This document shows, piece by piece, positions 8,994 to 30,302 of a stretch of 43,116 nucleotides of DNA. The stretch covers positions 1-43,116 of the IMG/VR virus record IMGVR_UViG_3300042934_000203; one strand, written 5' to 3'. Below the pieces are notes generated by a model, which saw only the letters and a program-made list of their open reading frames with translations, made no database searches and was not told the DNA's origin. The position numbers and the translations under genes were made by a program. The DNA is from a virus. Position 1 is the stretch's first letter; each line of letters begins with the position of its first letter.

Positions 8994-9173
8994 TCATTCT
9001 TCCTCCCTACACATTTTTACCAAATACCGCCCTATGCTGAGTTTGTGGCGAGTGGCTTTAGCCTTAATCATCGCCTTTTCTGATGCTGTCACTCTGATTG
9101 CTATTGTTTCTGTGATTGGCTCATCACCTGCTGGCTTTAGTCCTGCGTTGACACGCTTACCACCTCTAGGCAT
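8994..9173 (-). CDS. Ribbon-helix-helix-like DNA-binding protein
   Basis: 59 aa starting MPRGGKRVNAGLKPAG, then TIAIRVTASEKAMIKAKA and LSIGRYLVKM, a pattern seen in small RHH/MobC-like proteins. The ATG at 9173 overlaps the stop of the upstream gene; the frame extends to 9230 without a ribosome site, so the shorter form is preferred. It may autoregulate this unit. Confidence 0.68.
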   Translation of the reverse strand: MPRGGKRVNAGLKPAGDEPITETIAIRVTASEKAMIKAKATRHKLSIGRYLVKMCREEE

Positions 9174-9420
9174 TTCTTGGCCTATAAGGATATTCGTCAA
9201 CAATATTTTGACCACAAGAGAATGATCCATTGGTTGCTGTTAGCCAAGCAATTTTATATCCGTGATTTCTAATTTCCCTTTTAAGATTGATAAGTGAATC
9301 TGATGCTAAGATGAATTGCCCATTTCCTAACGACCCAGGGTCAGCCATTTTTGCTTGATATTCGTAATTCCACATCGTGGTTGTATCGACTTCAACAACT
9401 GGCTTTTTAATAAAAACCAC
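9166..9420 (-). CDS. 84-aa hypothetical protein, first gene of its unit
   Basis: Contains GSLGNGQFILASDSLINLKR and YKIAWLTATNGSFSCGQ. The start is GTG at 9420, only a few bases after the predicted transcription start of the promoter at 9432-9460, so the message would be nearly leaderless. An ATG at codon 16 is an alternative. It heads the unit running to the terminator at 8152-8174. Function unknown. Confidence 0.55.
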   Translation of the reverse strand: MVFIKKPVVEVDTTTMWNYEYQAKMADPGSLGNGQFILASDSLINLKREIRNHGYKIAWLTATNGSFSCGQNIVDEYPYRPRNA

Positions 9421-9543: not shown

Positions 9544-10572
9544 CTAATAATCTTTTTCTATCATTGTATAGAAAGGAACAAATTCGCCCTTGATGCGCTT
9601 GATAGTTCCCTCATTGTCAACTTTAGCTTCTATAATCCAACCGCCAACATGAGCAGACAGTCTTTTACCCTGCATCCATTTAGTCTGACGTTGGAATGTT
9701 CCTGCTTCAAAGGCAGCTATATTGCGGTAAACAGGAAGCATAAAGGCTTTGTGATGGTGGCCGATAAACAAAATACGGCTTTTTTCTCCACCAATAAGCG
9801 AGTCTATATATTTTTGTGTTGCATAGCTGATTGCATAACTAGCACCATCGAGAGGATGCACTAAGTCCATTGAGCAATTAGGCGTAATCATAACCCTTGC
9901 TGATTGCTTGCCAAGATATACAATATCGTCCCTGCTATTGCTAATTATTTTGCCAATATCAACGCCAGCCGACTTTATGCCTGAGTGGTCATGGTTGCCT
10001 GTTATGTAGTATGTTTTAAGTCCTTCTCTGCGAGGATACTTGTCTATGATGTATTCAGCCTGAGAATCAACACCATGCCTAAACACTTCGTATTCATGCC
10101 CTGTACGCATATTCACGCCCTCTGACAGATCGCCAGCGTGATAACATTCGGTTATACCATCATCAATAAGCATATCGTAAAATGTGTTTAGGTGTGTTAG
10201 TTGCTGATCTTTAGAGCAAAGGTGAGTATCAGAAATAACGCCGAACTTGACAGTTGTGTTTCCTGTCCAGTCGGCGTTGTGTGTGTTATCTTCTGGAATC
10301 AATATTTTAGTGAGTAAGTAATTACCGTTAACCTCTGCTATCTGATATCCTGCTTCTCGATAATCGTCAATCTGTGCTAACACCATTCTTGCAGACATGC
10401 CGGACTTGTCCGACAGTTCAGCAAGTGAGTTCTCTTTCTGCAACAAGTCAAGCAATGGTTTATACTCGACTTTCTTCTCTGGCTTTTCACTATTTGGATT
10501 ATATCGTAAATATCCCCTGACCTGAGTATCCTTAATTTCTTCGTCAAATTCTTTACTTAGCATTTTTGCCAT
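9544..10572 (-). CDS. Metallophosphoesterase with N-terminal winged helix
   Basis: 342 aa from the ATG. A calcineurin-like phosphoesterase domain carries all metal motifs: GVISDTHL (about 112), HAGDLSEG (about 146), GNHDH (192) and GHHH (271). It is preceded by a winged-helix-like segment (LLDLLQKENSLAELSDKSG, MSARMVLAQIDDYREAG). It may act as a nuclease or phosphatase. The reading frame stays open and protein-like for 19 more codons upstream (to 10629) but holds no ATG/GTG/TTG, although GGGGAGGG sits in front of it, so the true start may be a rare ATC. Confidence 0.88.
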   Translation of the reverse strand: MAKMLSKEFDEEIKDTQVRGYLRYNPNSEKPEKKVEYKPLLDLLQKENSLAELSDKSGMSARMVLAQIDDYREAGYQIAEVNGNYLLTKILIPEDNTHNADWTGNTTVKFGVISDTHLCSKDQQLTHLNTFYDMLIDDGITECYHAGDLSEGVNMRTGHEYEVFRHGVDSQAEYIIDKYPRREGLKTYYITGNHDHSGIKSAGVDIGKIISNSRDDIVYLGKQSARVMITPNCSMDLVHPLDGASYAISYATQKYIDSLIGGEKSRILFIGHHHKAFMLPVYRNIAAFEAGTFQRQTKWMQGKRLSAHVGGWIIEAKVDNEGTIKRIKGEFVPFYTMIEKDY

Positions 10573-10644: not shown

Positions 10645-11028
10645 CTATCTAACCAACAAATAGCCAATTCCCAATAAAAGTAGGTTGCGCTCAAACTTTA
10701 GTTTATTTCTCTCTGCCTTGACTTCTTTTTCGTATATTGCTAAGGATTGATTTGCCTTCTGTAATGAGTTCTGCGCTTGACTGATTGATTGTTCTGCTAT
10801 CGTCAACTTCTCTGAGAGCATCAGAATTTGTTTTTCCGACTTCATCAGCAAGTCGCTTGCTCTCTGCAACTTTATTTCCTGCGTCTTGTTGTTGCTCTCC
10901 AACTGTTGAAAGATGGATTCTAGTCGGCTCAATTCCGCTTCTGTAATCTCTGCTGCCATACCAATACACGGCAACGAGAGCAAGAATAACAGCAAGAGCA
11001 ATGTAAATATATTTTTTGCTTTGGTCAC
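10645..11028 (-). CDS. Spanin-like coiled-coil envelope protein (outer or single-component type)
   Basis: 127 aa. A signal sequence with a possible Cys acceptor (FLLSLPCIGMAAEI) is followed by about 80 residues of coiled coil (LESIFQQLESNNKTQEIKLQ, then QSISQAQNSLQKANQSLAIY) and a hydrophobic C-terminus (NLLLLGIGYLLVR). This is the plan of phage spanins, which join inner and outer membranes at lysis. It overlaps the 109-aa gene out of frame over almost its whole length. GGAGGGG lies nine bases before its GTG. The lipobox is not canonical. It lies downstream of holin and amidase. Confidence 0.6.
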   Translation of the reverse strand: MTKAKNIFTLLLLLFLLSLPCIGMAAEITEAELSRLESIFQQLESNNKTQEIKLQRASDLLMKSEKQILMLSEKLTIAEQSISQAQNSLQKANQSLAIYEKEVKAERNKLKFERNLLLLGIGYLLVR

Positions 11029-11032
11029 TCAA
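10703..11032 (-). CDS. Inner-membrane spanin-like protein in an overlapping frame
   Basis: 109 aa from a TTG at 11032, five bases after GGAGGGG (a GTG at 11038 is inside that site). An N-terminal anchor (KYIYIALAVILALVAVYWYG) is followed by a long polar coiled-coil-like part rich in Q, D and S. It is encoded in a different frame from the 127-aa gene that begins four bases later and spans it. Embedded pairs of this kind are characteristic of Rz/Rz1. Both frames look coding. Confidence 0.58.
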   Translation of the reverse strand: MSDQSKKYIYIALAVILALVAVYWYGSRDYRSGIEPTRIHLSTVGEQQQDAGNKVAESKRLADEVGKTNSDALREVDDSRTINQSSAELITEGKSILSNIRKRSQGREK

Positions 11033-11053
11033 AATCACCCCTCCTAAAATGCT

Positions 11054-11117: not shown

Positions 11118-11145
11118 GCATGGTTTTGGACTAAATAACGCTATT
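11106..11145. repeat. Intergenic motif copy 1 (CAATCTAGG ... GGACTAAATA)
   Basis: Shares CAATnTAGG, about eight variable bases, then TGGACTAAATA and GCTATT with 33654-33693 (17 of 19 and 11 of 13 in two blocks at identical spacing). A shorter version is at 30551-30574. All lie in gaps upstream of leftward genes. Confidence 0.6.
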
Positions 11146-11308
11146 TAAGCACTAGAACAGCAATGACAATAGCGACGACAGTATAAACTGACCATTTCAG
11201 CCAAACTTTCCACTTTGATTCATTATGTTTTATGGCTGATGCTTCAACTTTATCGTCAATGGCATGACCGATTTCATTTACTTTGGTTTTTATTTGATCT
11301 TTATCCAT
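11141..11308 (-). CDS. 55-aa C-terminally anchored membrane protein
   Basis: A polar helical start (MDKDQIKTKVNEIGHAIDDK) is followed by one C-terminal TM helix (WSVYTVVAIVIAVLVLK). GGAGG lies ten bases before the ATG. It sits between the amidase and the spanin-like pair, so it could be an accessory holin or antiholin. No family recognised. Confidence 0.65.
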   Translation of the reverse strand: MDKDQIKTKVNEIGHAIDDKVEASAIKHNESKWKVWLKWSVYTVVAIVIAVLVLK

Positions 11309-11400: not shown

Positions 11401-11922
11401 TTAATCATAAATTTGCACTCCCTTTACAATCGCTTCTGCGCATTGTTTCTGAAAATCAGGTGATGCTAACAATGCTTCTTCATCAGGATTAGTTATAAAA
11501 GCCAACTCGACTAGACAGGCAGGGCAATAAGTATGTTTAAGCACATACAGACCGCTAGATTGTTTTACTCCCCTGTCAGCTAGTCCTGTTGCTTTGACTA
11601 GTTCGTCTTGGATGCATCTAGCTAGATAGACAGATTGAGCAGAGCCTTCATATGCCCATGTCTCTGTTCCGTGTGCTTCTGAATTGGTGTGGCCGTTGCA
11701 ATGGATGGAAATAAAAATATCTGCTCCCCATTCGTTTGAGATAGAGCAGATTTCGTCAAGGTCGTTCGACTGAATAAACTGGTCTTGATGACCTGATGCC
11801 GTCAATAAATCATGGACAATTAACGCTATATTTCTGGATACGTCTGCCTCTTGTAATCCGTTAGGGCCGATTGCGCCAGGGTCGGATCCGGGGAAATGAC
11901 CTGCGTTTGTGGCTGTCCTCAT
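11401..11922 (-). CDS. N-acetylmuramoyl-L-alanine amidase endolysin (Amidase_3)
   Basis: 173 aa forming a single Amidase_3 domain: NAGHFPGSDPGA with the first zinc His, ISIHCNGHTN with the second His, and VELAFITNPDEE with the catalytic Glu. There is no signal peptide and no binding domain, so it needs the holin upstream to reach peptidoglycan. Its ATG overlaps the holin stop (TAATG). The first zinc Glu would lie in the early part (LQEADVSR). Confidence 0.93.
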   Translation of the reverse strand: MRTATNAGHFPGSDPGAIGPNGLQEADVSRNIALIVHDLLTASGHQDQFIQSNDLDEICSISNEWGADIFISIHCNGHTNSEAHGTETWAYEGSAQSVYLARCIQDELVKATGLADRGVKQSSGLYVLKHTYCPACLVELAFITNPDEEALLASPDFQKQCAEAIVKGVQIYD

Positions 11923-12158
11923 TATTCACCTCGCCTCAGTTCATCAATGTCCTTTTTTACTTCTCCAACATCAGAACGCACACTAGCCAGCGTTTCCGTC
12001 ATGTCCCGGAGAGTCCCTTCTATAATTCCTGTTAACCGTTCTTCTCGCTTGCCGTTCTGATACATGACATAGATTAGTAAGAGGATGAACACCAATGCCC
12101 AAGCTGAATTTGGATTTGAGAGGATTTCTTTCCAGGGAATGAGTTGTACTATTTCCAA
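11922..12158 (-). CDS. BhlA/UviB-type holin
   Basis: 78 aa from a TTG at 12158 (AAAGG upstream), a normal length for the family; the frame extends to 12290 with a non-coding-looking part. One N-terminal TM helix (SAWALVFILLLIYVMYQNG) is followed by the typical charged helix (KREERLTGIIEGTLRDMTET, KKDIDELRRGE). It permeabilises the inner membrane to release the amidase encoded next. Confidence 0.85.
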   Translation of the reverse strand: MEIVQLIPWKEILSNPNSAWALVFILLLIYVMYQNGKREERLTGIIEGTLRDMTETLASVRSDVGEVKKDIDELRRGE

Positions 12159-12243
12159 TGTGCCACGACCTTTCTCGTTCTGTTGTTGAAAAATTATAGG
12201 AATTGGATTATGATGTGGGTAAACAAAATTTGGGGGCGTAAAT

Positions 12244-12432
12244 ATGAATCGGTTTGTTTGTGATGCGGTTGACATTGCGATTGTTATCATGCTTATTTTT
12301 ACCTTGTCAGTAATGGCAGTGTCTAAGATTGAAAATACAAGCCGTTTCGAATTAATACAACCATCCTTTGACTATCACGGGACTTTTTTCGATGCTAAGC
12401 AAGAACCCCTTCGGCAACCCATTGCACAGTAA
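12244..12432 (+). CDS. 62-aa rightward single-TM protein (possible moron)
   Basis: Reads against all its neighbours. GGGGGCG lies seven bases before the ATG. The product has one TM helix (AIVIMLIFTLSVMAV) and a polar tail. It fills the gap between the tailspike stop (overlapping its last 38 bases) and the holin start. A TTGTTG...GATTAT pair upstream is a weak promoter. It could be a lysogenic-conversion gene, or a chance frame with a good ribosome site. Confidence 0.45.
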   Translation: MNRFVCDAVDIAIVIMLIFTLSVMAVSKIENTSRFELIQPSFDYHGTFFDAKQEPLRQPIAQ

Positions 12433-28972: not shown

Positions 28973-30256
28973 TCACCTCACACGTTTAAATGGGTTATAT
29001 CGTGACTTAGCACGACTCTTTACATCATAGGCTTGCTTTGTCTTGCCCATTTCTTGTTCTAAGCCATAGCGAATAGAGTCAATAATATGATTATTTTTGT
29101 CTACAGGCTCAGGCAATACATTACCATCTTTGTCCTCTCGCCATTTATAGACTGTAAACTCATTGATAGCATCTTTGAGTCGGTAATCAATGACGATTTG
29201 TAATGTCTGCAACCACTGTATTCCAAAGTTAACGCTGTCCTTGCCTTTGGTGCATGGTGTAGCTGTCACTCCATATTGCCGCAACTCTTGTATATTAAGT
29301 GGAGCAGCACAATCGCAAGTAATTACAGCACGGCCTATCAGATTCTTGATTTCTGTGGCCAGTAAATCATTGGTCATGCCATAACAATACTTAGCATCTA
29401 GTAGATAAAGAGTCATAGATTGACGGTCATAGTGCATATGCGTTATCGCTGATGGATCTGCCGCAAAGCCAAAGTCTAAACCATTTTGGAACGTAGAAAA
29501 AGACTTAGCTTTTTCGGCTAAGTCCTCAATACGCCAATTAGTGAATATTACTTTGCCCAATGTGCCCCACATGCCCAACAGGTAAACATCGCGATAATAC
29601 TTATCTTTAGTAGCTTCTAACCGCACAATATCATCAGGCGTTAAGAATTGATTATCCTTATATGTAGTCTTTAAGATTGATATATTTTCATCTTTGTAGA
29701 ACGTAACATTATCTGTCCATCTGCCTCTAAAGTGGTTTGTATATATCCAATGTGTCATATAGATAGGGTTGAATGATAGGATAATGCGCTTCTTAACTTT
29801 GCTTTGCCCTCTAAGGCGTTTGTCTAATTGTTGTATATCCTCGTATTCTGATTCCGTTGCTTCTTCAAACCAAATATCAGTTATAACGCCTTGTGAAGGA
29901 GTTATTGACTTAACCTTCTCAGGATCATCCAGGCCACAGAAAACAATCTGATAACCATTAGAACAAGTGATAATTAAGTCAGTCATGTTAACCGTGAACA
30001 GTTTACCAACCTTGAAGAATGATATAGCCTTCTGTATTTCATTGAACACTGACCGCTTTAATGTATTGGCGACCTTACGAATAACTAAGTAATTATGACC
30101 ACCTTTGAGCATATCCAGCACGCATCTTTGAGCTAAGAAATATGACTTACCAGAGGATGAACCGCCATAATATATCTCTAGCGGTGCAATCCAGCCAAGA
30201 TAAGGCTTGTAGACAGGGTTAAATACTTTAGGATCTATTGTTAGGTTGACTTTCAT
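28973..30256 (-). CDS. terL: Terminase large subunit (PBSX-type)
   Basis: 427 aa from the ATG at 30256 (GGAG eight bases upstream); the longer frame to 30289 starts inside a terminator hairpin and is unlikely. The ATPase carries Walker A GGSSSGKS (about residue 31) and Walker B ITDIWFEEAT (about 145). The nuclease carries GLDFGFAADPSA (about 277) and NHIIDSIRYGLE near the end. It packages DNA with the small subunit at 30.8-31.2 kb. Confidence 0.95.
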   Translation of the reverse strand: MKVNLTIDPKVFNPVYKPYLGWIAPLEIYYGGSSSGKSYFLAQRCVLDMLKGGHNYLVIRKVANTLKRSVFNEIQKAISFFKVGKLFTVNMTDLIITCSNGYQIVFCGLDDPEKVKSITPSQGVITDIWFEEATESEYEDIQQLDKRLRGQSKVKKRIILSFNPIYMTHWIYTNHFRGRWTDNVTFYKDENISILKTTYKDNQFLTPDDIVRLEATKDKYYRDVYLLGMWGTLGKVIFTNWRIEDLAEKAKSFSTFQNGLDFGFAADPSAITHMHYDRQSMTLYLLDAKYCYGMTNDLLATEIKNLIGRAVITCDCAAPLNIQELRQYGVTATPCTKGKDSVNFGIQWLQTLQIVIDYRLKDAINEFTVYKWREDKDGNVLPEPVDKNNHIIDSIRYGLEQEMGKTKQAYDVKSRAKSRYNPFKRVR

Positions 30257-30272
30257 CTGATCAACTCCAAAT

Positions 30273-30302
30273 AAAAAGCCAACAGGCATTTACCTGCTGG
30301 CT
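30273..30302 (-). terminator. Terminator just upstream of terL
   Basis: Read leftward, AGCCAGCAGG, loop TAAATG, CCTGTTGGCT, then TTTTATTT: stems of 5 and 4 bp around one mismatch. It ends the short transcript carrying the 53-aa gene, 17 bases before the terL start, so terL needs readthrough or antitermination. Confidence 0.72.

Follow-up and report, generated by a model that had tools for sequence, protein, structure and literature searches.

The window analysed here is the whole of a 43.1-kb virus record, a temperate siphovirus with integrase, RecT, terminase, portal and head genes. Its minus strand carries a lysis cassette in which a BhlA-family holin-like gene (Holin_BhlA-like, 11922–12290; Pfam PF10960, 26.9 bits against a cut-off of 22.6) is followed by an N-acetylmuramoyl-L-alanine amidase endolysin (Amidase_3, 11401–11922; Pfam PF01520, E = 3e-45), a gene for a 55-residue protein with a single, C-terminal transmembrane segment (11141–11308) and a pair of nested genes, in agreement with a first-pass annotation that had placed the pair after holin and amidase. 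The 55-residue reading frame has a near-identical copy in one related locus (L002) and a look-alike in another (L003); its product is possibly a second holin or antiholin. A metallophosphoesterase gene lies directly downstream of the pair (9544–10572) and is near-identical in a further locus, L005, where the pair is only 65–76% identical and the endolysin belongs to another family, indicating strong mosaicism. An open reading frame similar to that of a small window protein with a NikA-like mobilization domain (8994–9230; Pfam E = 1e-7) comes after the phosphoesterase in L005, and what appears by eye to be an HNH-type endonuclease gene (L005:3570–3974) sits between the endolysin and the nested pair of that locus.

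The nested pair consists of an i-frame gene encoding 109 residues (10703–11032, minus strand; TTG start at 11032, stop at 10703) and an o-frame gene encoding 127 residues (10645–11028, minus strand; GTG start at 11028, stop at 10645). The two starts are 4 nt apart behind one Shine–Dalgarno sequence, GGAGGGG (11038–11044, minus strand; CCCCTCC on the plus strand), as had been read at first pass and is confirmed in the sequence. An alternative in-frame GTG at 11038 for the i-frame overlaps the Shine–Dalgarno sequence. The frames overlap over 326 bases (10703–11028, minus strand), with the o-frame in +1 relative to the i-frame and extending 58 bases beyond the i-frame stop. Among relatives the commonest start spacing is +4 nt (31 loci), followed by –2 nt (14 loci); because starts were picked by a script that rewards Shine–Dalgarno matches, single start positions are approximate.

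Relatives were taken from viral contigs, one human-fecal phage record and Negativicutes genomes, and 82 related loci were chosen by the o-frame alone. The i-frame is open in the same +1 register in all 82, and the spanin criterion of overlapping or adjacent genes with o in +1 or –1 of i is satisfied throughout (+1 in 82/82). Codon shuffling that preserves the o-protein introduces a mean of 3.0 stops per locus into the i-frame, and shuffling that preserves the i-protein introduces 2.0 into the o-frame; none is observed in either case (42 loci each). For the window alone, the i-frame stays open in 7% of o-preserving shuffles and the o-frame in 40% of i-preserving ones, often enough that the proof of dual coding rests on the relatives. 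In 31 held-out loci, which were not used for building the profiles, the real i-frame exceeds all 100 o-preserving recodings (31/31; median z 6.4), and the same holds for the real o-frame against all 100 i-preserving recodings (31/31; median z 7.6). The loci share ancestry, and neither the 82-locus nor the held-out counts represent independent trials; i-frame identities down to about 15–20% nevertheless make an inherited idle frame untenable. Selection on both frames is thus confirmed. The first-pass annotation had judged that both frames look coding, had proposed a synonymous-site comparison across relatives as the check and had named conservation of only one frame as a refutation; the comparison found both conserved, and the refutation failed.

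The 109-residue product looks like an i-spanin. It has a predicted N-terminal transmembrane helix, a periplasmic helix and a basic C-terminus, and AlphaFold2 places helices at residues 3–28 and 30–108 (pLDDT 83), consistent with the N-terminal anchor and coiled coil suggested earlier. The N-terminal hydrophobic segment is present in 78/78 relatives, with the positive charge on its N-terminal side. The i-spanin criterion (N-in/C-out, N-terminal transmembrane segment, periplasmic helix) is met, with the caveat that the topology is predicted and not measured. A PHROG search with the i-frame returned only weak matches, to Rz-like spanins (E = 0.005).

The 127-residue product begins with a signal peptide (residues 1–25; 10954–11028, minus strand) with predicted cleavage between GMA and AE. 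A signal peptidase I-type site is found by rule in 67/78 relatives, 53 of the 78 having Ala at –1, and most of the remaining sites look similar by eye. AlphaFold2 predicts a single helix spanning residues 30–126 (97 residues), with pLDDT above 95 over most of its length. The protein ends in a hydrophobic tail, RN-LLLLGIGYLLV-R (10648–10686, minus strand), encoded past the i-frame stop. Such a tail, typically of 11–16 residues with a K/R end and preceded by a segment of net charge +3, is present in most of the 82 loci; with few exceptions its codons lie past the end of the i-frame. In three loci (L109, L114 and L116) the i-frame reaches the o-frame stop or further, so that the tail is overlapped too. 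The signal sequence, long coiled coil and hydrophobic C-terminus noted at first pass were all recovered, but the lipobox prediction proposed alongside them came out negative: none was detected in the 127-residue protein or in the window's other reading frames, and a strict lipobox occurs in only 4/78 relatives, within or beside the hydrophobic core. The o-spanin criterion of an outer-membrane lipoprotein with a lipobox is therefore not met, and the product is not an outer-membrane lipoprotein of the Rz1 type. Periplasmic cysteines are absent from the window pair and from 37/78 pairs. Pfam and NCBIfam matches to SMC, DUF745 and similar families were rejected as coiled-coil noise.

The location in a lysis cassette holds in the window and for most of 57 upstream genes scanned. 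The nearest gene upstream of the pair is an endolysin drawn from unrelated families (17 Amidase_2, 15 Amidase_3 and 12 GH25 among the 57), and holin-type genes precede these endolysins in the relatives' cassettes. That several unrelated endolysin families occupy this position argues that the pair tracks the host envelope rather than any one endolysin.

The nested pair was verified in at least 68/380 Negativicutes genomes, including Sporomusa silvacetica, and o-frame matches at E = 1e-8 or better occur in about 80/380. Both the o- and i-profiles were also run against 398 evenly sampled Bacillota genomes, 13 of them Negativicutes. Nested pairs were found in 4/13 Negativicutes versus 0/385 other Bacillota when the top hits were inspected (Fisher p = 7e-7), and the only loci in which both profiles match nested frames (G153, G249, G348 and G355) are all from Negativicutes. 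Whether the sample includes Halanaerobiales is undetermined. Weak profile matches outside Negativicutes are mostly reading frames of about 380–430 residues or single frames of 150–240 residues; none of them has a matching nested partner, and they were accordingly rejected as coiled-coil noise. The strong outside matches lack such a partner as well. Homologues confined to monoderm hosts would have refuted the earlier proposal of a diderm Firmicute host; instead they are found in Negativicutes and in none of the monoderm Firmicutes sampled.

The same proposal is supported by the terminase. A scan of genome contigs gave no close o-frame relative in named genomes, and the terminase was therefore used to reach the host. 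Its closest match among the named genomes reached, in a scan limited to two short peptide patterns, is in S. silvacetica DSM 10669 (69%), and the 100,654-bp contig that carries this terminase also has, in the same prophage and on the terminase strand, a nested pair some 21 kb further downstream. A 52% match to the portal protein lies within the order of S. silvacetica. Among 50,697 named phage records, five o-frame queries found one relative only, an unannotated human-fecal record, and an i-frame query found none. The closest annotated phages by terminase (28973–30289) are viruses of Marinitoga camini (51% identical), a cross-phylum link to the Thermotogota; terminase similarity also extends to Marinitoga virus MCV1 and Thermoanaerobacterium phage THSA-485A, neither of which has the pair. 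One 73.8-kb contig, IMGVR_UViG_3300042922_000250, carries two different nested pairs (L004 and L020) about 27 kb apart, which suggests that two prophages lie in tandem or that the contig is chimeric.

Spanins carry out the last step of lysis, destruction of the outer membrane, and those described of the o- and u-type are lipoproteins of that membrane (PMC6139136). Phages in which no lipoprotein is detectable are often called spanin-less; in the same survey this applied to 91/677 phage genomes, many of them from phages of cyanobacteria and Thermus, and Kongari et al. anticipated spanins with other anchors without giving an example (PMC6139136). Negativicutes are reported to lack LolA and LolB, and outer-membrane lipoproteins have not been identified in Veillonella (PMC5007114, PMC5491611, PMC10665443). 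Our own search found LolA in 0/120 Negativicutes genomes, with working controls, in agreement with two of these reports (PMC5007114, PMC10665443). In the absence of a Lol pathway a lipoprotein o-spanin would scarcely get to the outer membrane, making a protein anchor the expected solution. A search of the open literature, which left out subscription journals, turned up no description of Negativicutes spanins or of such a pair.

We consider it probable that the pair is a two-component, lipid-free spanin-like system for an outer membrane without Lol, with one helix based in the inner membrane, a tail in the outer membrane and zippering between the two products. The starting points are computational observations: dual coding, cassette position, restriction to Negativicutes in the sample, absence of a lipobox, the long helix and the tail. 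The lytic function, the outer-membrane location of the tail and the zippering are inferred only, without any experiment. The pair would act as the last module of the cassette, breaking the host outer membrane once holin and endolysin have done their part. Its N-terminal helix would hold the i-product in the inner membrane, with a 12-nm helix pointing outwards. The o-product would be exported by Sec and cleaved by signal peptidase I, leaving a single long helix; the short hydrophobic tail at its end may take the place of the Rz1 lipid anchor and most likely lodges in the outer membrane. The acidic N-terminus of the o-product could then contact the basic C-terminus of the i-product in mid-periplasm and, once the peptidoglycan is gone, antiparallel zippering would draw the outer and inner membranes together. 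Charges are –2.7 for the mature o N-terminus, +1.1 for the i C-terminus, +2.8 for the segment preceding the o tail and –0.9 for the i juxtamembrane segment, a pattern that favors antiparallel i–o pairing in 65/78 loci; this evidence is indirect, and there are no binding data. Counting against the proposal are the negligible sequence similarity to known spanin families and the 37/78 pairs that, unlike most two-component spanins, have no periplasmic cysteine. Helical outer-membrane anchors are also rare.

The alternative that we take most seriously, although we judge it unlikely, keeps the same lytic role but makes the o tail an inner-membrane anchor at the C-terminus (type I, N-out); both products would then reside in the inner membrane and only their distal parts would reach the outer one. 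A tail that is often only 11–16 residues long and ends in K/R could be a stop-transfer sequence, the antiparallel charges would fit a complex wholly in the inner membrane too, and the weak NCBIfam matches include TIGR04211, a family with a coiled coil and a C-terminal anchor. A type I protein has also been called a conceivable unconventional i-spanin (PMC6139136). Such a complex would, however, be without any outer-membrane anchor, and the net charge of +3 on the periplasmic side versus about +1 on the cytoplasmic side would be contrary to the positive-inside rule, which thus mildly favors an outer-membrane location. A conventional Rz/Rz1 pair in which an unusual lipobox (Cys 21 in LSLPC; G-T-C in relatives) makes the o-product a lipoprotein seems very improbable. 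A Cys two residues ahead of the predicted signal peptidase I site is present in many relatives and novel lipoboxes such as AWAC are on record among spanins (PMC6139136), but this Cys is not conserved (it is Ser in L003 and missing in many loci), position –1 holds P, T, I or L instead of G, A or S, and the hosts' class has no LolA (0/120 genomes).

Two further readings depart from a spanin altogether. Two membrane proteins with coiled coils inside a lysis cassette could form a lysis-timing or holin/antiholin-like system with no role in outer-membrane disruption; we think this quite improbable, since the pair stays constant over different endolysins and none of the 385 other Bacillota genomes has it, a distribution that links it with the diderm envelope rather than with either the holin or the endolysin. 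That there is a single true gene, the other frame being passively open, would draw on the 40% of i-preserving shuffles that leave the window o-frame open, but it is practically ruled out by the held-out loci, all 31 of which beat the 100 recodings in each frame, and by the register and start spacing kept in 82 loci.

A stronger form of the lipid-free spanin proposal is that phages of Negativicutes use a spanin whose outer-membrane subunit is a tail-anchored helix processed by signal peptidase I, without lipid, precisely because the host lacks Lol; we advance it tentatively, stopping short of a preference. If true, this would be the first o-spanin that is not a lipoprotein and would add a rare helical outer-membrane anchor. 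The use of a protein anchor by phages of diderms without Lol, which the data suggest, would supply a search pattern for missing spanins elsewhere. The pair also provides a phage-borne marker of diderm Firmicutes hosts and a handle on how proteins are placed in the Negativicutes outer membrane without lipoproteins.

By inference, the pair works like a two-component spanin, its lytic function being untested. Like lambda Rz/Rz1, it has two genes in one stretch of DNA after holin and endolysin, with o in +1 of i, and an i-product that combines an N-terminal membrane anchor with a periplasmic coiled coil. The Rz/Rz1 plan put forward in the first-pass annotation stands in its dual coding and in its place behind the endolysin, but not in the o-product, which is one long helix with a hydrophobic C-terminal tail in place of a lipobox protein, nor in the starts, which nearly coincide, with o outlasting i. 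Embedded o-genes start inside i, most of them at about 0.4–0.5 of its length (PMC6139136). Periplasmic cysteine, present for intermolecular disulfide formation in 507/528 known two-component spanins (PMC6139136), is often missing here. Because both the lipobox and the cysteine criteria fail (the latter in the window and 37/78 pairs), the pair should not be filed as Rz/Rz1. It shares with the T1 gp11 u-spanin export and a C-terminal hydrophobic membrane segment, but the T1 type is an N-terminal outer-membrane lipoprotein acting alone, whereas the pair lacks a lipid anchor and includes another, overlapping protein; with no lipobox and a second selected frame always present, the unimolecular criterion is not met. 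Among PHROGs, phrog_18860 matches the i-frame of 9/78 relatives (best E = 3e-52) and has no assigned function; no PHROG family covers the o-frame. The MlaD of Veillonella parvula offers an analogy, though no homology, in that this Negativicutes protein substitutes for a lipoprotein-based system by means of a periplasm-spanning helix and a second membrane domain (PMC10665443); MlaD is a host lipid-transport protein and its outer-membrane domain is a beta-barrel. The pair appears to differ from all described spanins in missing a lipid anchor, and in this respect appears to fit hosts seemingly without outer-membrane lipoproteins.
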